Source: an uncultured Desulfatiglans sp. (GTDB taxonomy: Bacteria > Desulfobacterota > DSM-4660 > Desulfatiglandales > Desulfatiglandaceae). From it: a stretch of 64,000 nucleotides of DNA. A program made the position numbers and the translations under genes. Under the pieces are notes generated by a model, which saw only the letters and a list, made by a program, of their open reading frames with translations, searched no databases and was not told the DNA's origin. This document shows, piece after piece, positions 10,610 through 64,000 of the stretch; positions within the stretch are counted from its first letter, which is position 1, and each line of letters opens with the position of its first letter. The stretch is taken from contig LR026961.1 in the NCBI GenBank assembly GCA_900498135.1, forward strand, positions 315,226-379,225. The letters are read 5' to 3'.

Positions 10610-11665
<1,056 letters not shown>

Positions 11666-11723
11666 CCGGTCTGCCGGTCTCCCCTCTCGAAAAAGACTTT
11701 TTGACCCTTGTCCGAAGCGAAGC

Positions 11724-11976
11724 GCCGAGATTGACCAAAAAGACCATTTCCGGATAAAATCTAGATCGTATCCATCCGGAAATGATTTCCCGGTAGAACC
11801 CAGTTTGGAAATGATTCCCCGGTAGAACCCAGTTTCCAATCCGGAAATGAGGATTTTTGGCCAATATCAAGGAAATCGAGCGTTTGCGCGGAGGCGACCT
11901 GTCGGTCGCCGCACAAGCAAACGCGCAGATTGACGCCGAGATTGGCCAAAAAGACCATTTCCGGATGGAATCCAAA
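11724..11976. repeat. Intergenic modular palindromic repeat, copy B
   Basis: This copy fills most of the mreB-mreC gap (11666-12060). It has a core at about 11833-11975 (TTTCCAATCCGGAAATGAGG..., a GGCGACC/GGTCGCC hairpin, ...CATTTCCGGATGG) preceded by two or three truncated end units in tandem (CATCCGGAAATGATT..., GGTAGAACCCAGTTT twice). Each half mirrors the other imperfectly. Its orientation is opposite to copy C. Confidence 0.85.
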
Positions 11977-18487: not shown

Positions 18488-18780
18488 TGCCCATCCGGAA
18501 ATGACTTCCCGATACCACCCCGTTTCCAGGCCAGAAACAGGGTCGGATCCCGCTGACCCTATCCGAACATCTGCCTACGGACCAGACATTCACCCCCTGG
18601 CTAGTTTCCATCCGGAAATGGTCTTTTTGGCTAATCTCGGCGTCAATCTGCACGTTTGCTTGTGCGGCGACCTGCAGGTCGCCTCCGCGCAAACGCTTGA
18701 TTTCCTTGATATTGGCCAAAAATCCTCATTTCCGGATTGGAAACTGAGTTCTACCGCGAAATCATTTCCGGATGGAAACT
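18488..18780. repeat. Intergenic modular palindromic repeat, copy C
   Basis: The core is at 18604-18779: CATCCGGAAATGGTC, TTTTTGGC, an 18-bp perfect palindrome GGCGACCTGCAGGTCGCC at 18666-18683, GATATTGGCCAAAA, then CATTTCCGGATTGG and a terminal CATTTCCGGATGG. A diverged end unit lies at 18488-18530. This copy has no second-module insert. The rest of the 850-bp gap up to the OmpA-family gene holds only its promoter. Confidence 0.88.
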
Positions 18781-18929
18781 GGCTATTCTCCATCTTGTGA
18801 CGGACACGACTCTCCCTGTACCCTGCGCTCCTCTGCGAAGCCCTGTTCAACCCAGCCACCCAAATGGGCTCTTCCGTTAAAATAGTATGAATTCTCAAGA
18901 GGAAAGGCAAACATTCTCTCACATTCCGC

Positions 18930-20482: not shown

Positions 20483-20768
20483 CGAGTGTCCATGCGGAAA
20501 TAAGGCTTCGAGAACGAAATCGTTTTCGGGCCGGACATCAGCACTTTTCTTTACACCCTTCGGGTGCTCAGTCCCACCGCTGCGCGGCGGGTCCCGGTTT
20601 CTTCACACCCTTCGTGTGCTCAGTCCCACCCCTGCGGGGAGGGTCCCGATTTGGCCAAGATCAAGGAAATCCATCGGGTGCGCGGAGGCGATCTGGTGGC
20701 CGCCGCGCAAGCAAACGCGCAGGTCGACCTAGTAGAGATAAGGCAAGAAGCCCGTTTCCGTAGGTAAC
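20483..20768. repeat. Intergenic modular palindromic repeat, copy D with double insert
   Basis: This is a diverged copy. The end units are at 20490-20530 and 20750-20768. Between them are two tandem units of about 51 bp of the second module (CACCCTTCGGGTGCTCAGTC..., CCACCGCTGCGCGGCGGGTC...) at about 20553-20650, then TTGGCCAAGATCAAGG and the RGGDL-encoding core. The 585-bp gap before mscS contains only this and the preceding terminator. Confidence 0.82.
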
Positions 20769-23947: not shown

Positions 23948-24170
23948 CTCTGAGACTCATTTCCAACCGGGAATGGTCTTTTTGGCCAATCCCGGCGTCA
24001 ATCTGCACGTTTGCTTGTGCGACAACCACCAGGTCGCCTCCACGCAAGAGCTCGATTTCATCGATTTTGGCCACATGCGGACCCGCTCCACAGGGGCGGG
24101 ACGGAACACGCGAAGTGTGTGAAGAAACCGGGACCCGCCGCGAACCGGTGCGACTGAGCACCCGAAGGAT
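23948..24170. repeat. Intergenic modular palindromic repeat, copy E with double insert
   Basis: It starts with CATTTCCAACCGGGAATGGTC and TTTTTGGCCAAT, passes the GTTTGCTTGTGCG core and reaches GATTTTGGCCA, where two units of the second hairpin module follow (GGACCCGC..., GCACCCGAAGG...). It lies directly upstream of the groE promoter and downstream of the yqeB stop. Confidence 0.8.
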
Positions 24171-24196
24171 GTATGGACAGCCCTGACTGGACCCTC

Positions 24197-45718: not shown

Positions 45719-45907
45719 TGCGTGGCACCTCCCTCGATCATTTTCAGACCCCGCTCCCTGGAAAGTTTAGGGAATCCTTCAAACACAATCAAGCTACCAG
45801 CCGCGGCCGCCCCCGAGGGTCGGGATAAAAGAGGTTCGGACGCTCAACTCCACCATTTCGCAACGAGTCCCGGTTCAGCCCGTACCAAGAAAATCCATCA
45901 GGAGCAC

Positions 45908-45990
45908 AAAGATGCCCTGCAGGTCACCGCACGAGCAATCGCGCGGATTGACGCCAAGATCGAACAAAAAGGCCATTTCCGGATGGAGAC
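45908..45990. repeat. Partial intergenic repeat, copy F
   Basis: A diverged half copy (CCCTGCAGGTC, GGATTGACGCCAAGAT, CATTTCCGGATGG) lies in the 288-bp gap between the two acyl-CoA dehydrogenase genes. Confidence 0.7.
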
Positions 45991-46006
45991 TATTTCAGGA
46001 CCGGCC

Positions 46007-47916: not shown

Positions 47917-47982
47917 GAAGCGCCCTTTCGCAGCATTCGGACCGCCAGCGATCTTCTCAAAGGAATTTCATATTTGAAACGC

Positions 47983-48027
47983 ATGTGATCATATATGATA
48001 ATCACATACCTTTCGCCTGTCTGTCAA
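47983..48027 (-). promoter_or_regulatory. iclR promoter region with candidate operator
   Basis: TTGACA on the minus strand (complement of 48022-48027) is a good -35 box; the -10 overlaps an inverted repeat at 47983-48007 with arms ATGTGAT and ATCACAT and an inner perfect ATCATATATGAT palindrome (47988-47999). Position and symmetry suggest autoregulation by the IclR protein. Confidence 0.55.
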
Positions 48028-48053
48028 GCCCATCCCCTCCTGACAGCGCATGG

Positions 48054-48107
48054 AAAAATCCCCTGTGCACAGCCCGTTGAAAGATGGTGTGTGCACAGGG
48101 GATTTTT
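48054..48107. terminator. Strong symmetric hairpin with 18-bp arms
   Basis: AAAAATCCCCTGTGCACA and its exact complement surround an 18-base loop. Runs of A and T at the ends make it terminator-like in both directions. No gene ends here on the plus strand; it may stop transcripts entering the iclR promoter. Confidence 0.65.
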
Positions 48108-48122
48108 GGTGCGTAGTTAGAT

Positions 48123-48314
48123 CATCCGGAAATGATTCCACGGTAGAACTCAGTTTCCAATCCGGAAATGAGGATTTTTAGCCAATATCAAGGAAATCAA
48201 GCGTTTGCGCGGAGGCGACCTGCAGGTCGCCGCACAAGCAAACGTGCAGATTGACGCCGAGATTGGCCAAAAAGACCATTTCCGGATGTAAGCTGTTATC
48301 ATTTCCGGATGGGG
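48123..48314. repeat. Intergenic modular palindromic repeat, copy G
   Basis: A well-preserved copy without a second-module insert: CATCCGGAAATGATTCC, GGTAGAACTCAGTTTCC, the GGCGACCTGCAGGTCGCC palindrome (48214-48231), GATTGACGCCGAGATTGG, CATTTCCGGATG twice. Same orientation as copy B. Confidence 0.88.
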
Positions 48315-48421
48315 ATATCAGGAGGTCTTTCACGGCGACATCGCCACCTCCTTTTCAGCAAAGCTTTTTCGTTCGAAAACAAACATCAAGCTCTTCAGCT
48401 GTACTAAAAAACAGCCTGCGT

Positions 48422-48670
48422 CTAAAAGGTATCATTGCGAAGCATGCGATCGATTCTCGGGGAAACTGAGCAATAAACCACCGCGCCGTCGGTATAAACA
48501 GCATCGTCTGTAATTTTGGGTTGTGTCGACGAATAAGGACATTTAGTGCAGTTCCAGGTATTCCAAGAACGCGCCACAGCCTCATCAAGGCAACGGTTGT
48601 AATAAGGGCAAAAAAGATTTCGCTCACCTTTCTTGTGTGTTGGATTACGTTTTACAAGCACAGCATCCAT
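48422..48670 (-). CDS. Small Cys-rich protein, probable zinc-binding, unknown function
   Basis: An 82-residue protein, MDAVLVKRNPTHKKGERNLF, then CPYYNRCLDEAVARSWNTWNCTKCPYSS. Four cysteines in this stretch (C-x5-C-x13-C-x2-C) form a likely zinc site; a fifth lies near the end. The ATG follows GGGGGTG. It lies beside an AT-rich island and a repeat copy. The Cys/Trp pattern looks like a real small protein rather than a random frame, but I cannot name the family. Confidence 0.55.
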   Translation of the reverse strand: MDAVLVKRNPTHKKGERNLFCPYYNRCLDEAVARSWNTWNCTKCPYSSTQPKITDDAVYTDGAVVYCSVSPRIDRMLRNDTF

Positions 48671-48996
48671 AGCGTCACCCCCGTCGCAAAAATTGCCGCG
48701 AGTATAATGATTATATTAAAATCTAAATCATTTCACTATTATTATATTTTAACGATCCACTCACGCCGCTATTAAATTCCAATGGAAACAAGTCATTTAT
48801 TTATAATTATATATATGTAATATAAAGCTATCCATGCTTACGATATATACCAATAAATATGAAACCGTAATTATAATGATTGCAAAGCTGCTGCATCAAA
48901 TATTCACCATTTACTATGTGGTGCCTTCCAAATATTTTTTTTTTATTTTCACATTCAAAACAGTACAATTTCAAACAAGAGAGCTATTCGAGATCG
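48671..48996. other. AT-rich island
   Basis: This stretch is sharply AT-rich compared with its surroundings (runs of A/T such as 48700-48850 and a T-run near 48935). It holds no gene that I can support; the plus-strand open frames (48834 onward) look like chance low-complexity translations. It separates two small Cys-rich minus-strand genes. Confidence 0.6.
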
Positions 48997-49173
48997 TCAA
49001 CCGCGCGCCCGTCGACAGTATGGACGCCAAACGCAGTCTTTCTCTTCACAATAGGCCCCTTGTCTATCGAAACACTCAGGCTTCCCCTCCTGTCTCTGAA
49101 CTGAATGTATTATCCCTCTGATAATCGCTTCATCCCTTTCATTTCCAGCGCGGATTTTGTACCTGTCACTCAT
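48997..49173 (-). CDS. Small Cys-rich protein, unknown function
   Basis: A 58-residue protein starting MSDRYKIRAGNERDEAIIRG, with CFDRQGAYCEEKDCVWRPYC near its end: four cysteines spaced C-x7-C-x4-C-x5-C suggest a metal site. The ATG at 49173 has an AGGAAAGAAG purine stretch upstream. It faces the same direction as the other small Cys-rich gene across the AT-rich island. No family was recognised. Confidence 0.5.
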   Translation of the reverse strand: MSDRYKIRAGNERDEAIIRGIIHSVQRQEGKPECFDRQGAYCEEKDCVWRPYCRRARG

Positions 49174-49916
49174 GAGTCTTCTTTCCTTTTCAGCGGTCAA
49201 ACTCATGCACATCGATTTCGTCCAGGCCCGTTATCGATCGAATTCCACATCACAAAATCCGATGCCGCCCTCCTTGATCCCCTCGAAATCCTCGCCACGG
49301 AAAAAACCGTTTCCCGATCGGCCGCAGAAAAACGCGCATCGGGAGCGTCCCGCCGATCCTGCGGAATTTCCCCCCGCCTGCCTGTGCGCAACGTTCCACG
49401 TGAACTTGCAGCGTTCGCATCAAGGCATCTTCCCTCAGCTTGTCCTTCGGGTGTTTCTGCAGAGGACCCCGCATCCGTGAGGGATACTATCGCAATCCTT
49501 TCGAGCCGTGTCCATGGGCACAACACCTCATTTTCCTGGAGATAATCCCCGGTCTAAGCACAAAAATCCCCCCCCTGAATTCCAGACGAGAGCGCTCCCG
49601 AAGATCTCCCGAATTGCACCGAGCCGGAAAAAAGTGTAGTCGATCGTAATGCTTGAAAAAATTTCCTAATAGGTGCAAGACTTGAAAAAACCAGCCATTG
49701 AAATTCCGGGTGAAAGTTCGGGACACCTTCCCGGCTATAATGGGAGAAAATCCTTTTCACAGAATCAGCAGCGGAAAGACAATAAAATTCACGGCTTCAA
49801 GAACATGGATAATTTACTGATTTTACGCTTGAATCACAAAAGGACAATCGGCCTTTTTCGGTCCTTTAGGTCCCAAAACCAGGATTCAAAAGAGGCAGCG
49901 ATTCTGCTAATCGCTT
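49174..49916. other. Gene-poor stretch
   Basis: I found no convincing gene. One minus-strand frame (49250-49474, with an inner ATG preceded by GAGGGAAG) could encode a short basic protein ending in RVFLRPIGKRFFPWRGF, but there is nothing to confirm it. No terminator or RNA was recognised. Confidence 0.4.
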
Positions 49917-50192
49917 TCCATCCGGAAATGGTCTCTTTGGCCAATCTCGGCGTCAATCTGCACGTTTGCTTGTTCGGCGACCTGCAGGTCGTTTCTGCGC
50001 AAACAGTTGATTTTCTTGATATTAGCTAAACCGGGAACCGCCGCGAAGCGGTGGGAGTGGGCACCCGAAGGGTGCGAAGAAACCGGGACCCGCCGCAACG
50101 CGGTGGGACTAAGCACCCGAAGGGTGTAAAGAAAAATCCTCATTTCCGGATTGGAAACTGGGTTCTACCGAGAAAAGCATTTCCGGATGGAT
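49917..50192. repeat. Intergenic modular palindromic repeat, copy H with double insert
   Basis: Orientation as in copy C. After the GGCGACCTGCAGGTC core and the GATATTAGCTAAA junction, two units of the second module follow (GAAACCGGGACCCGCCGC..., GCACCCGAAGGGTG twice), then CCTCATTTCCGGATTGG and CATTTCCGGATGG. It precedes the PAS kinase gene. Confidence 0.88.
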
Positions 50193-50335
50193 ACTCATAA
50201 GGCAAAATACCCCGATGGAAAGACGGCAGCCTCTCGTGGAGTAAGGCGCACCACCGTCGGCCTCTCACTGGCGGCGGGCTGGCATGACACTGCAGATGGG
50301 CGTCTTTCGGCGGCCTGTCAAGAGAGAAACCAGAG

Positions 50336-52366
50336 ATGGAAGAAGACCATAGGCAAAACGGGCAGCAACCAACCGGCATCGGTTCATTACAGGAATTACT
50401 TCAAAAGGCAGAAGGTCTTTTGAAGCATCAAGTCCTGGAAAGCAACCTGGTCACTTTTCCCGAAGATCGGCAGGATGTGCTTCGGCTGGTCCGTGATGTT
50501 CAAATCTGTCGGGTGGCCTTAAACATTCAGCACGAAGAACTGCTAAAGACGAAACGAGAGCTTGCCAAATCAAACCAAACCTGGTTTGACGTCTTCGACT
50601 ATGCTCCAACGGGATTCTTCATTTTAGACCGGCAGCGACGAATCCTGCAGGTCAACAGGGCCGGAGCCAGGCTGCTCGGTTCTGAGAAAGACGAAGTAAA
50701 GAACCAGGTTTTCAGCCGCTTTGTGGCTCCGGAACACACCTCGCGGTTTCTTGATCATCTACAAGATAGCGTTGAAAACCAAAGTAAAACACCATGCGAG
50801 CTGGCGCTGCAAATGAGAAACGGAAATCAGATCTTCGTTCTCGCCCAAGGCCAGTGCCTTCCCTCCCGGAAGAGTCGGACGGATCTTTTCCTGATGGCCG
50901 TCATGGAGATAACCGACCGGAAAATCAGCGAGAAGGCCCTTCAAACGAGTGAACGAAGATATCGCAGTATTTTTGAGAACCTACAGGATGTTTATTATGA
51001 GGCGGCCATGGATGGAACCATTCTCGAACTCAGCCCATCCATTGAAAATATTTCTAACTACAAAAGAGAAGCATTGATTGGAAGATGTTTATATGATTTC
51101 TACGTAGATCCAAATAAAAGAAATGATCTTTTAAATACAATTTTAAAATACGGAAAAGTAATAGACTATGAAGTAAACCTGAAAGACAAAAATAATATAT
51201 CAGCTTTCTTTTTAATTACAGCCAAATTGCTGCGCGATGAAAACAATGCGCCTATCAAGATTACAGGCTTAATGCGCAACATTGATGAACTGAAAAGAGC
51301 GCAAGGCATGCTTAATGCGATACTTGCCGCCTCTCCTGTTGGCATATTTTTGATTCAAGACAATAAAATCACTTGGGCGAATGAAGCTATCTACAAAATA
51401 TTGAGCTATGAGTTCAACACATTGATCGGACAGAATACTATCATACTATATACAGATCGCACTGAGTATGAACGTGCTGAAAATTATCTGAATGAAGCAA
51501 TTAATCAGTCTGGCATTGCACAGATTGAGACGCAATTACTTAGAAAAGATGGCAGTTTGATTGATTGTTATATTTACGCGAGTCCTCTTGAACCACATGA
51601 TATCAATAAGGGTATCATTAGAGCCGTTTTGGATATAACCGTTCGGAAGAATGCGGAGGAGCAAATCAACCTTCTCAGTCAAGAATTAATGAGAGCACAC
51701 GAAAATGAACGTAAAATGATTTCAAGCGAATTGCACGACCGCATCGGCCAGGATCTATCAACATTGAAGATCGGTTTGGACACCCTCTTGGACAACCAGC
51801 CCATTGTTTCTCAGGTGACTCAGCACCGAATCGCCGAATTGTCTAGCATCCTCCAAACCGCTATACATAGTGTTCGTGACCTGTCGTATGATTTGCGCCC
51901 TCCCAGTCTGGACCAGTTGGGCCTCCCGAAAACCATCTTCCAGTTCTGCGACGATTTCTCCAAGAAAACGGGTCTGGATGTAGATTTCAGTGCGGCCGGA
52001 ATGGATGATCTGGCGCTGGACACAGATACTGAGATCAACATTTACCGGCTGATTCAAGAGGGCCTGAACAACGTTCGAAAACATGCCGAGGCTGAAAATG
52101 TCTTCATCAGGTTGCTTGCTTCCTTCCCAAACATCCTTTTGCGCATAGAGGACGATGGAAAAGGGTTTGATGTAAAGCAGCGCCTGGCGGACATGAAGAA
52201 TGAAAAACGAATGGGACTGCGCAGCATGGAGGAAAGGGCCAAGTTGCTCCAGGGAAAAATGGAAATCAAATCGAAGCCGGGGAAAGGTACAAAGATTGTA
52301 ATCGAAATCCCATATAAAAAGGGGCCTGACCGTGCCAGTGAAAAGAAAACGCATCTTGATCGTTGA
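50336..52366 (+). CDS. Cytoplasmic PAS-domain sensor histidine kinase (NarX/DegS-type core)
   Basis: A 676-residue kinase without membrane segments. It has three PAS domains (about 80-200, 205-325, 330-445), then a HisKA_3 dimerisation domain with SSELHDRIGQDLSTLKIGLD (phosphoacceptor His467) and a HATPase_c domain (EGLNNVRKHAEAENV, RIEDDGKGFD, MGLRSMEERAKLLQGKMEI). This core pairs with NarL/FixJ regulators, and exactly such a gene overlaps its 3' end. The second and third PAS regions are distinctly AT-rich relative to the ends. The signal is not evident; PAS domains may bind a small molecule or cofactor. Confidence 0.92.
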   Translation: MEEDHRQNGQQPTGIGSLQELLQKAEGLLKHQVLESNLVTFPEDRQDVLRLVRDVQICRVALNIQHEELLKTKRELAKSNQTWFDVFDYAPTGFFILDRQRRILQVNRAGARLLGSEKDEVKNQVFSRFVAPEHTSRFLDHLQDSVENQSKTPCELALQMRNGNQIFVLAQGQCLPSRKSRTDLFLMAVMEITDRKISEKALQTSERRYRSIFENLQDVYYEAAMDGTILELSPSIENISNYKREALIGRCLYDFYVDPNKRNDLLNTILKYGKVIDYEVNLKDKNNISAFFLITAKLLRDENNAPIKITGLMRNIDELKRAQGMLNAILAASPVGIFLIQDNKITWANEAIYKILSYEFNTLIGQNTIILYTDRTEYERAENYLNEAINQSGIAQIETQLLRKDGSLIDCYIYASPLEPHDINKGIIRAVLDITVRKNAEEQINLLSQELMRAHENERKMISSELHDRIGQDLSTLKIGLDTLLDNQPIVSQVTQHRIAELSSILQTAIHSVRDLSYDLRPPSLDQLGLPKTIFQFCDDFSKKTGLDVDFSAAGMDDLALDTDTEINIYRLIQEGLNNVRKHAEAENVFIRLLASFPNILLRIEDDGKGFDVKQRLADMKNEKRMGLRSMEERAKLLQGKMEIKSKPGKGTKIVIEIPYKKGPDRASEKKTHLDR

Positions 52367-53012
52367 TGATCATCCCCTTTTCCGTGAAGGGCTGAAATCC
52401 ATCATAGGGCGGGACAAGAGCTTCGAAGTCGTGGGAGAAGCAGGGGACGGTCGAGGGGCGAAGCAGTTGGCCAGAGAACTCGAGCCCGACCTCCTTCTGG
52501 TGGACATATCCCTGCCGGATCAAAGCGGTATTGACCTGGTGCGCGATATCAGAAGTTTTCTCCCGGAAGCCCGCGTGCTCGTTGTCAGCATGCATTCAAA
52601 AGTCCAGCATATCGCCGAGGCTTTCAAGGCTGGGGCCACTGGCTACGTCGTCAAAGAATCCGCATCCGAAAGGCTGGTCCAGGCCCTCGAAGCTGTTTCG
52701 AACGATCAGTACTTCCTCGACAGTTCCCTGTCCCAGCAGGTGGTGGAGACAATGATCGGATTCCCCGCCAAAGAAGCGAAGATCACCAACGCCGCATACA
52801 AAAAGCTCAGTCCCCGTGAGCAGGAGGTGCTGCGTTTGTTGGCCCAGGGATTGCCGGCGAAACAAATCGCTGAAAAGCTTTTCATCAGCCCGAAAACCGT
52901 TGAAAATCACCGGTCCAATATCATGAGCAAACTCGAGGTCAAAAGCACTCTCGAACTGGTTCGCTATGCGGCAAAGATCGGGCTGATCGACGTCGATCTA
53001 TGGAAAGAATGA
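52332..53012 (+). CDS. NarL/FixJ-family response regulator
   Basis: A 226-residue regulator: receiver domain with DD at 12-13, phospho-Asp58 in LLLVDISLPDQSG, and a C-terminal LuxR-type helix-turn-helix (LSPREQEVLRLLAQGLPAKQIAEKLFISPKTVENHRSNIMSKL, about 158-205). It starts with GTG inside the kinase gene, overlapping by 35 bp, so it is coupled to and very likely phosphorylated by that kinase. Targets are unknown. Confidence 0.94.
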   Translation: MPVKRKRILIVDDHPLFREGLKSIIGRDKSFEVVGEAGDGRGAKQLARELEPDLLLVDISLPDQSGIDLVRDIRSFLPEARVLVVSMHSKVQHIAEAFKAGATGYVVKESASERLVQALEAVSNDQYFLDSSLSQQVVETMIGFPAKEAKITNAAYKKLSPREQEVLRLLAQGLPAKQIAEKLFISPKTVENHRSNIMSKLEVKSTLELVRYAAKIGLIDVDLWKE

Positions 53013-53280
53013 CACCCCGCCTGGCACCTGTCTTTCCCCTTCTTTCTGATACGGGAAAAACTCCTGCCTTTCCGCTTTTCTCCCGTCAAAATGAGTTCAT
53101 CCCCTGATGGACAACGTAGAAAAAACATGGGAACGTTTCCAGGGTGAGAGGGTTGCATCTCCCTGAATCCCTGCCGCGGGATATCTCCATCGTCCTTTGG
53201 GGTCCTTGACGTCAGGGTTCAGGCGAAACGGGGCACGGGCAATTATCCAAGAAAAGCGCGGAGAAAAATGAGGACATTCC

Positions 53281-53730
53281 ATGTACAGCATTCTTGTCGC
53301 TCACAGTGATGCATCCATGCGTATCCTGTTTTCGGAAAAGCTTTTCGAAGAAGGGTATAACGTGACCAGTTGCGGGAATCTCGAACAACTCTCCGAGTTG
53401 CTCGAAACGAAATCGGCCGACCTGCTCATCATGAACGCGGCATTGGCAGGACGCATCGGCATCGAACTTTTCGCGTCAGTCCTCAAAAAGGGTAGTACAC
53501 CCCCTCTCCTGTTGTGCGTAAACCATTCCGGCATACCGGAAAATCCGCTCTTGGACGTCGCCCATTATAGGTACGGCTCTCTGAGCCCGGAGGAAATCAA
53601 AAATAAGGTGAAAAATATCTTCGACCTCCGGAAAACGCACCGAAAGAAGAAAACCACGCCAGCCGCAAGCAGGCACGTCTCTCCTCTTCCTGCGCTTTTA
53701 AACTCGGCGAGCGGGTCGACAGCGAGTTGA
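53281..53730 (+). CDS. Degenerate receiver-like (pseudo-receiver) protein
   Basis: A 149-residue protein with a CheY-like fold pattern: MYSILVAHSDASMRILFSEKLFEEGYNVTSC, then ADLLIMNAALAGRIGIELFASVLKKG. The phosphoacceptor position holds Asn52 rather than Asp, the acidic pocket is reduced to a single Asp, and the conserved Lys is absent (HYRYGSLSPEE). A Lys-rich, then Ser/Ala tail follows residue 118. It cannot be phosphorylated normally and may be a constitutive or ligand-gated partner. It follows the regulator after 268 bp. Confidence 0.68.
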   Translation: MYSILVAHSDASMRILFSEKLFEEGYNVTSCGNLEQLSELLETKSADLLIMNAALAGRIGIELFASVLKKGSTPPLLLCVNHSGIPENPLLDVAHYRYGSLSPEEIKNKVKNIFDLRKTHRKKKTTPAASRHVSPLPALLNSASGSTAS

Positions 53731-53875
53731 AAAACCCAGCGGTCGCAATCTGAAAAAAAGTGTCCGGGTGCAAGGCGAACAAGATCCCCCGGCCGGGGTG
53801 GGTATACGGGTGCAGTGCCGCAGCCTGGAGGGCGCACAGCGTGGCGGCCGGACGTTTCTCAACGGTCTGTCAAAA

Positions 53876-54307: not shown

Positions 54308-54372
54308 AGTTTCCATCCGAAAATGATTTCGCGGTAGAACTCAGTTTCCAATCCGGAAATGGTCTTTTGGGC
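54308..54372. repeat. Partial intergenic repeat, copy I
   Basis: Only end units are present: TTTCCATCCGAAAATGATTTC, GGTAGAACTCAGTTTCC, AATCCGGAAATGGTC. The core palindrome is missing. Confidence 0.75.
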
Positions 54373-54567
54373 CGATATGACCGGAAACATCCGCTTTCAA
54401 ACGCCAAGAACCTTTGCGCACCCGTCATTCAGAGAAAGGCCTTTCCCTCGACGCACAGCATGGCGTTGCCTGGAATCGGACTAACCCGCATCCAGATGGC
54501 GCGCCGGACGCAGCCCATGTTTATCCCGCCCTGCGCATATAACAGATGAGGACTTCCGCCGCGACGG

Positions 54568-58414: not shown

Positions 58415-58624
58415 GGTTTCTCCTATATGAGTTCGTGACTACCGTTTTTCGATTTGGAAAGGCATTTGTCCCATTTCAAACAATGATATTTTACGCCTTG
58501 GCGCCCGAGGAATACAGTTGTTTCATTTTGAATGAAAAATCAGCATGAAAACATGGTTTCCCCCTCGATTTGTGGTATAAGAAAATGCTGATGTTCTGCT
58601 GCATGTCCGCCCGGAACTGTCGAT

Positions 58625-58822
58625 CCGATACAGCCCGGTTTCCAGGCCGCAAATGAGAAATGGTTCTTCACACGCTTCGCGTGCCCAGTCCCGCCGCTTC
58701 GCGGAGGGTCCCGGTTCGCAGATATCAGAATAAACAAATCCTTGCAAGCAGGCGGCCTGTCGGTCTCTGCGCAAGCTCGCTTGCGGATGAGGCCCGAGAT
58801 TGGCAAAAGACCATCACGAAAT
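58625..58822. repeat. Diverged intergenic repeat, copy J
   Basis: A decayed copy with one second-module unit (CACACGCTTCGCGTGCCCAG..., CGCTTCGCGGAGGGTCCCGG) followed by a mutated core (GGCGGCCTGTCGGTC, GAGATTGGCAAAAGACC). It occupies most of the gap between maeB and the DUF3313 gene. Confidence 0.72.
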
Positions 58823-63408: not shown

Positions 63409-63521
63409 CGTTTCGGCGCCCATCTGTACGTTTGCCCATGCGGAGGCGGCCTGTAGGTCGCCGCACAAGCAAACGTGCAGATTGACGCCGAGATGGGCCA
63501 AAAAGACCATTTCCGGATGGG
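63409..63521. repeat. Intergenic modular palindromic repeat, copy L
   Basis: One half of the core is present: GTTTGCCCATGCGGAGGC, CTGTAGGTCGCC, CAAGCAAACGTGCAGATTG, CCAAAAAGACCATTTCCGG. The open frame seen in other copies has a stop here. It lies between the convergent BMP-Cache and solute-binding genes. Confidence 0.8.
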
Positions 63522-63523
63522 AT

Positions 63524-64000
63524 CTATCTATCTTTCATTTCCAGCATGTCCTCCAGCGTGTCGACCTCTTCCAATCCGAGCAGATCGCCGTCTTTTCGCT
63601 CACTGCCGTGCAAGGGCGAAAAATTGAGCACATTTCTGCTGACTCCATAGGACTCGATCTGCTCGTAGAGGAAGATTCCCGGGACATCCTCACGGATCAA
63701 AAGAAGGCTCTGAAGGTAAAGAGCCTTCCTTTTCTCCTGATCCATTTCAAAGCGTGCGGCCTCGAGCAGCGTGTCCAATTCCGCATTGGAATAATAGGAA
63801 ATGGAAGATTTCGACGAAAAGAGCGGAACCAGAATGCCGTCCGCGTCGAAAATCGTATTGCCCCATCCGAGGAGATACAAAGACTCCGCTCGGCGGTTCT
63901 TGAAAATCTGCATATACTCGGCCCATTCATACACCTTGACGTGGACCCGGATTCCGACCTTACCCAGCATGTCGGCAATCGCCGAAGCGACCTGCCGGTC
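63524..64000 (-). CDS. Family 5 extracellular solute-binding protein, C-terminal part
   Basis: The 3' end of a gene that continues past the window edge (frame open to 64000, about 158 residues shown). IADMLGKVGIRVHVKVYEWAEYMQIFKNRRAESLYLLGWGNTIFDADGIL, YYSNAELDTLLEAARFEMDQEKRKALYLQSLLLIREDVPGIFLYEQIESYGVSRNVLNFSP is the C-terminal lobe of oligopeptide/nickel-type ABC binding proteins (SBP_bac_5). Substrate cannot be told from this part. The listed end is the window edge, not the start codon. Confidence 0.88.
   Translation of the reverse strand, partial: DRQVASAIADMLGKVGIRVHVKVYEWAEYMQIFKNRRAESLYLLGWGNTIFDADGILVPLFSSKSSISYYSNAELDTLLEAARFEMDQEKRKALYLQSLLLIREDVPGIFLYEQIESYGVSRNVLNFSPLHGSERKDGDLLGLEEVDTLEDMLEMKDR

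Follow-up and report, generated by a model that had tools for sequence, protein, structure and literature searches.

A recently active 176-bp MITE with a conserved hairpin interior in an uncultured Desulfatiglans sp. and several orders of Desulfobacterota, and its candidate ISNCY partner

The window, that is the whole 64,000-nt stretch of DNA analysed here (G000:C1:315226-379225), belongs to the single-contig, 4.80-Mb genome of an uncultured Desulfatiglans sp. (G000, the source genome). At 18604-18779 it carries a 176-bp MITE, whose exact ends were located via its target duplications. The terminal repeats measure 15-17 nt, and the element contains no transposase gene; it is made of a 143-bp near-palindromic core and, beyond it, an asymmetric tail of about 34 bp, with the true right terminal repeat at its far end. 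The features of the focal copy are the following.

18598-18603, no strand: left copy of the target-site duplication TGGCTA; a single TGGTTA stands here in the congeneric genome G001
18604-18779, plus strand: complete focal MITE of 176 bp, bounded exactly by GTTTCC...GGAAAC; the site is empty in G001
18604-18620, plus strand: left terminal inverted repeat GTTTCCATCCGGAAATG, its first 15 nt common to both ends of the ISNCY IS
18666-18683, no strand: central palindrome GGCGACCTGCAGGTCGCC, perfect over 18 nt, the hairpin tip, followed by the conserved bulge TCC
18690-18702, minus strand: IHF-consensus site AATCAAGCGTTTG (WATCAANNNNTTR) in the right arm of the hairpin
18727-18744, minus strand: further copy of the terminal repeat, inverted and inside the element, which closes the 143-bp palindromic core and pairs with 18604-18620
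18745-18762, plus strand: asymmetric tail from the core to the right end, the least conserved part in alignment A1
18763-18779, minus strand: right terminal inverted repeat, the reverse complement of GTTTCCATCCGGAAATG; the element reads GTTTCCATCCGGAAATG ... CATTTCCGGATGGAAAC
18780-18785, no strand: right copy of the target-site duplication TGGCTA, a perfect 6-bp match to the left copy

The original prediction had described a nested design of roughly 170 bp. Its central palindrome is indeed present, whereas the unit proved to be exactly 176 bp, from 18604 to 18779, with a palindromic core and an asymmetric tail. Folding of the focal hairpin gave a z-score of -10.5 for RNA and -8.8 for DNA. Full-length copies 98-99% identical to the focal MITE exist elsewhere in G000, and G000 has 30 copies in all, counting the focal one, that match it at 96-100% identity over nearly the whole length, which indicates that the activity of the MITE is recent.

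A repeat search together with an nhmmer model located copies of the family in the window at 11609-11972, 18488-18538, 18603-18779, 20650-20767, 23960-24074, 45874-45991, 48123-48313, 49912-50194, 54309-54396, 58715-58817 and 63411-63541. The repeat family is therefore real, copies being recovered at nearly all the places first proposed; the additional bits at 1, 34010 and 61496 correspond to short end-motif matches visible by eye that fall below the threshold of the nhmmer model. The 64-kb window holds 12 clusters of the family, with both orientations present, and the motif CATCCGGAAATG, with up to two mismatches, matches 36 times compared to 10.0 +/- 3.3 in shuffles. Beside the focal element, we distinguished the following copies.

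11609-11760, minus strand: diverged copy or fragment, adjoining the next copy
11807-11972, minus strand: near full-length copy; no copy at the matching G001 site
18488-18538, minus strand: old tail fragment, with a match in G001 too
20522-20767, minus strand: diverged copy with two internal 52-bp cassettes (20546-20597 and 20598-20649)
23960-24173, plus strand: copy with an internal cassette (24128-24173)
45874-45991, minus strand: partial copy
48123-48294, minus strand: nearly complete copy, with 97% complementarity to the focal one
49915-50194, plus strand: 280-bp form, a MITE with two internal 52-bp cassettes (50031-50134)
54309-54396, minus strand: partial copy, right half
58608-58817, minus strand: diverged copy with one cassette (58664-58714)
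63411-63541, minus strand: partial copy

The cassette is a GC-rich double hairpin of 52 bp (CCGGGACCCGCC..GGTGGGACTGAGCACCC..GGGTGTAAAGAAA) that occurs inside MITE copies as 0, 1 or 2 tandem units and gives rise to length classes of 176, 228 and 280 bp; 43 of its 44 matches in 864 kb of G000 lie within or beside MITEs. A block of about 5.9 kb of the window (47935-53839), which holds two MITE copies, is absent from G001, with a 6-bp overlap at the joint. Elsewhere in G000, a tandem array (L247:5600-6500; G000:C1:3015794-3016247) contains four cores at an exact spacing of 142 bp, with N letters at the joints. In the dimers of L003, L007, L029 and L070:8964-9307, the second element begins within the first at a common TTTCC motif (GATTTCC/GTTTCC), an arrangement suggestive of recombination at microhomology. 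A left flank ..CATAACA (L009, L010, L028, L095; in L010 and L095 ..GACAAGAGCCCGTTTCATAACA) is common to several MITE copies and one ISNCY copy; this common flank could be either another dispersed repeat or a preferred target.

The window is richer in MITE clusters than the G000 average, with one cluster per 5.3 kb compared to one per 9.5 kb in 400 kb of evenly spaced stretches of the same genome, so that the density of one copy per roughly 6 kb initially proposed holds for the window and not for the wider sample. With the core pattern used for counts (GTCAATCTGCN9TGTGCGGCG, at most two mismatches), 290 MITE cores were found genome-wide in G000 and none with the reversed pattern as a control; the repeat is thus neither confined to the window nor an assembly artefact. 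MITE end motifs numbered 494 across G000 (control, 4). These G000-wide counts are pattern searches, and direct reading covered 864 kb of the 4.8 Mb. Copies avoid genes and are mostly intergenic: only 16 of 135 MITE midpoints in G000 lie inside ORFs of at least 250 aa, while such ORFs make up 72% of the sequence. Of the original claim that all copies are intergenic and occur in both orientations, the second part stands and the first holds for most copies.

Several observations reveal that the element moves. In 864 kb of G000, an exact 6-bp duplication flanks 13 of 38 full-length copies (175-177 bp) compared to 0.009 expected, about a thousandfold above chance, and a looser scan of G000 recovered 25 duplication pairs compared to 1.5 expected. 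Exact 6-bp duplications were also found at 31 of 81 testable copies from distant genomes, and the target is TAnYTA-like in both the G000 and the distant-genome sets. At the focal site, G001 has a single TGGTTA where G000 reads TGGCTA-element-TGGCTA, with flanks that are approximately 91-96% identical. The reverse case was also found, in which G001:C4:162475-162654 holds a MITE copy where G000 is empty, and G001 is devoid of a MITE copy at the site corresponding to 11.6-12.0 kb of the window. The target duplications and the empty and filled sites indicate that the repeat is a mobile MITE and not a REP/BIME element. All of the features of MITE membership that we examined were found: the repeat is short and non-coding, with terminal inverted repeats, duplications, empty sites in both directions and ends that match those of an autonomous IS. 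Judged from these sequence comparisons, it is a recently active MITE with defined ends, target and duplications, and the description "MITE-like" in the original prediction was well chosen, as shown by the inverted repeats at its ends, the 6-bp duplications of the target and the empty sites.

The same prediction also likened the repeat to REP/BIME-type palindromes, which would be spread by a RAYT (Y1) transposase via single-stranded hairpins. This explanation would suit the conserved imperfect hairpin with its fixed bulge and the fact that Y1_Tnp proteins are encoded in G000, and we take the hairpin tip, TGCGGCG..CGCC, to be reminiscent of enterobacterial REPs. However, REP/BIME elements are palindromes of 20-40 nt without target duplication that are tied to a RAYT gene, and Y1 enzymes of the IS200/IS605 type make no target duplications. 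Such an origin is highly improbable for an element with a fixed length of 176 bp, 6-bp target duplications, clean empty sites and ends matching a DDE IS. The proposed link to a RAYT gene did not materialize either, as a PF01797 search revealed a copy near one of six Y1 loci, which is no more than density predicts; the Y1 loci are not associated with the repeat. Three near-identical IS200-type Y1 transposase genes of G000 (L031, L032 and L033; 154 aa) have terminal hairpins and are unrelated to the MITE.

Duplications of 6-7 bp presumably point to the ISDol1 group as the probable partner IS group. The ISDol1 group is placed under ISNCY by ISfinder, and since we take its duplications to be 6-7 bp long, we searched G000 and its relatives with the ISNCY transposase model NF033593 (curated cut-off of 325 bits). 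G000 contains three ISNCY transposase loci, two without internal stops and one with an internal stop. The transposase is 455 aa long, scores above the cut-off (438.9 bits, E=1.7e-131) and has DDE_Tnp_1 and DUF772 domains. The corresponding IS is 1693-1698 bp long and its ends, GTTTCCATCCGGAAAACG / GTTTCCATCCGGAAATAGGG, both begin with GTTTCCATCCGGAAA; one copy in G000 is flanked by the 6-bp duplication TAAATA. As far as inspected, nothing relates the interior of the MITE to the G000 IS. The original statement that no transposase is visible remains true of the window, whereas an ISNCY IS with the same ends is present elsewhere in the genome. Two other candidates were discarded. In L069, two ends spanning 1.9 kb were considered as a possible second IS, and no transposase was recognised among the ORFs there; the IS1202 family was rejected as a partner because the duplication observed here is 6 bp, while the classes reported for that family are 3-5, >15 or 0 bp (PMC10132070).

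Matching ends and duplications are not restricted to the source genome. An ISNCY IS of 1698 bp with matching ends and the duplication TAATTA is present in G016, another with matching ends and the same duplication in G431, and two of 1671 bp in G472, from the order of G269, with the duplications TAGTTA and TAACTA; matching single ISNCY ends occur in G010, G543, G464, G487 and G269. The ends of the IS and of the MITE change together between lineages, since both carry AAAT ends in the family of G000, AAAC ends in the order of G269 and ATTTATGGATGG ends in G010. It could be argued that a different, unseen transposase moves the MITE and that the resemblance of the ISNCY ends is convergent, all the more so as ISNCY is absent from most carriers searched. 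Of the 41 genomes in the relatives set, only 3, among them G000, passed the NF033593 cut-off, no complete ISNCY gene was found in 19 selected genomes, most of them clear MITE carriers, and most of the MITE-bearing genomes searched have no complete ISNCY gene in their assemblies. ISNCY IS ends were sought in G395 and none were found, the related-locus search of genome contigs with the ISNCY transposase gave no match, and plasmid records yielded no match to the MITE and one weak 175-bp match to the IS. These gaps in carriers may reflect draft assemblies that break at repeats, or loss of the partner after a burst. Convergence is nonetheless improbable given the 15-nt ends in common, the common 6-bp TAnYTA-type duplications and the lineage-by-lineage covariation of the ends, and because ISNCY elements with non-matching ends (G012 and G019) occur in genomes without MITE matches. 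A further transposase with the same ends could nevertheless be encoded in G000, of which 864 kb of 4.8 Mb were read directly. Mobilisation of the MITE in trans by the ISNCY transposase is thus strongly, if circumstantially, supported by these sequence comparisons, and we assign a probability of roughly 0.87 to the reading that the 176-bp element is a MITE mobilised in trans by the ISNCY DDE transposase of a separate IS of about 1.7 kb.

The family extends far beyond Desulfatiglans. At the DNA level, matches were found in 18 of the 41 genomes of the relatives set, and of 395 genomes taken as a sample of the phylum, 59 contain the core pattern (at most two mismatches), some of the single two-mismatch matches being due to chance. 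The exact core pattern is present in at least 120 stretches in named genomes. Among the matches listed, record titles include Desulfuromonadales, Geobacterales, Desulfobacterales, one Syntrophales and many unplaced "Deltaproteobacteria", together with a few MAGs labelled Chloroflexi or Proteobacteria, which may be mis-binned. L131, L136 and L176, which contain MITE copies, come from one such MAG, C2.bin.19, labelled Chloroflexi, and these contigs are probably mis-binned Desulfobacterota. The sole match on a viral contig (L246, IMG/VR) is placed right at the contig end and may be host sequence. Of the 31 copies with duplications from distant genomes, 27 are 176-178 bp long. Copies are 92% identical within a genome compared to 74% between genomes, which suggests repeated local bursts of an old family. 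Lineage-specific insertions were also observed inside MITEs of other genomes (L145, L210, L214, L228, L237; L148, L236, L239), such as GCCTGCCC.GTGAAATGCGGAGCCTATTTCTCTGGG and TTCAGTGCTTGACTTGATTAACCTGGGCG, and some are perhaps further small mobile units.

We aligned 58 divergent full-length copies (alignment A1) and observed interior blocks, GTCAATCTGC, TTGTGCGGCG and CTTGATTTCCTTG, that are near-invariant across orders. The copies can be folded into an imperfect hairpin of 145 nt in which 90.6% of cells are paired and two-sided changes occur at 25 of 51 pairs; in the stem formed by 18604-18620 and 18727-18744, compensatory changes affect single pairs in up to 20-21 of the 58 copies. There are 270 two-sided cells; shuffled controls have 84 +/- 6 and slid ones no more than 56. 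The same 58 sequences served to derive the structure; this favours it over the slid controls on the percentage of paired cells but is unlikely to explain the two-sided counts. Template-switch repair of inverted repeats could also preserve the symmetry of a palindrome in the absence of any selection on structure, a process compatible with the observation that compensatory changes are nearly all from one Watson-Crick pair to another with rare intermediates. Yet such repair would erase imperfections as well, and throughout the phylum the TCC bulge, a T.G mismatch and the TCTGC/TTTCC internal loop do not vary. The constancy of the bulge and internal loops indicates that palindrome repair alone is insufficient to account for the conservation, and we attach little probability to this explanation.

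Conservation of the interior could alternatively mean that the main role of the core is that of a functional regulatory RNA or of an element bound by host proteins, kept and spread by cells, for which the transposon ends would be the vehicle. This would account for the fact that the interior, and not the ends alone, is conserved across orders, and it is consistent with the near-invariant interior, strong compensatory changes and fixed bulges, as well as with the annotation of a related-looking family of G. metallireducens as 24 predicted short RNAs (PMC2700814). On the contrary, copies are scattered and differ between congeners at the same loci, and the contrast between within- and between-genome identity is what bursts of a selfish element would give. 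No Rfam family reached its gathering threshold in the window. One-sided states are seldom seen, and among well-paired positions A-C states (75 cells) exceed G-U states (23 cells) on the strand as written, so that a plus-strand RNA is not favoured; if a transcript matters, the evidence leans towards the minus strand, in a set of related sequences with small numbers. We therefore consider a primarily regulatory core rather unlikely. An IHF consensus (taken from PMC5896051) is found at one place in 48 of the 58 copies and nowhere else in those copies, part of this stretch being invariant for whatever reason; 19 different N4 sequences occur at the site in a set of 65. A further possibility, which we put forward tentatively and with some doubt, is that the interior hairpin has been co-selected with this MITE phylum-wide as a functional module. 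It would be a structured DNA or RNA to which IHF or another host factor is recruited, or which is processed in transcripts, and the element would form a dispersed regulatory network.

The ISNCY-driven MITE would operate as follows. The ISNCY-family DDE transposase encoded by the separate IS of about 1.7 kb would recognise the common ends GTTTCCATCCGGAAA and insert the MITE into TAnYTA-type sites, mostly between genes, with duplication of 6 bp of the target. IHF may bind its predicted site and bend the MITE, helping the two ends to pair, and the conserved imperfect hairpin core could serve transposition, or could fold within read-through transcripts and so render insertions tolerable.

Comparison with known systems places this MITE among elements that are alike in kind and not in sequence, namely Correia, ERIC and QMITE. 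ERIC is an imperfect palindrome of about 127 bp conserved in several genera; its sequence differs, and the MITE described here has a 6-bp duplication and a likely partner IS. The ISNCY family itself (NCBIfam NF033593) has the same terminal repeats and 6-bp duplication, from which the MITE differs by lacking a transposase gene and, as far as inspected, by its unrelated interior. Correia elements (CREE/NEMIS) of Neisseria are abundant intergenic hairpin MITEs of 105-155 bp, the long form of which has an IHF site, and IHF bending has been proposed to bring their ends together (PMC2229807). The present MITE resembles them as an abundant intergenic hairpin element with a putative IHF site at a fixed place (48/58 divergent copies), whereas Correia elements have other ends, target TA, are Neisseria-specific as far as known and show no sequence relation. 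QMITE1 and QMITE2 of Coxiella burnetii are stem-loop MITEs, and QMITE1 has an IHF-like site and appears unique to one species (PMC5896051), unlike the MITE described here, which spans several orders. Chunjie, a 235-bp MITE of Geobacter uraniireducens (PMC10969869), comes from the same order as some of the carriers and is set beside our element by its description only. In the 2009 account, the "predicted short RNA elements" of G. metallireducens are intergenic, present in 24 copies and centred on the palindrome GRCGTAGCGCTGCTACGCC (PMC2700814 Fig. S1), and this account also mentions the family for G. sulfurreducens, G. uraniireducens and Desulfotalea (PMC2700814). This palindrome is much like the GGCGTAnnnnTACGCC tip of the MITE, and these elements are described there as RNA and not as a transposable element; compared by published description, they are probably the same family. 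Among the papers covered by a literature search with sequence strings, two unrelated ones matched, and none had the MITE signature strings in a relevant context.

We conclude that this is a real, mobile and unusually widespread MITE family with a strongly conserved interior. Exact ends, a target site, empty sites and a candidate transposase now define a family that annotation had so far treated, at most, as anonymous multicopy sequence or as short RNA. This concrete identity makes the family testable in laboratory Geobacter strains, if they are carriers. With hundreds of hairpins per genome, it is also a practical issue in the annotation, assembly and RNA-seq of such bacteria. Prokaryotic MITEs in the cited papers are mostly limited to one species or genus, whereas here a length of 176-178 bp and the interior are kept over several orders of Desulfobacterota, which raises the question of which selection acts inside a non-coding transposon. 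If the hairpin were indeed a co-selected functional module, the MITE, instead of being inert selfish DNA, would constitute a dispersed regulatory network in sulfate-reducing and Geobacter-type bacteria.
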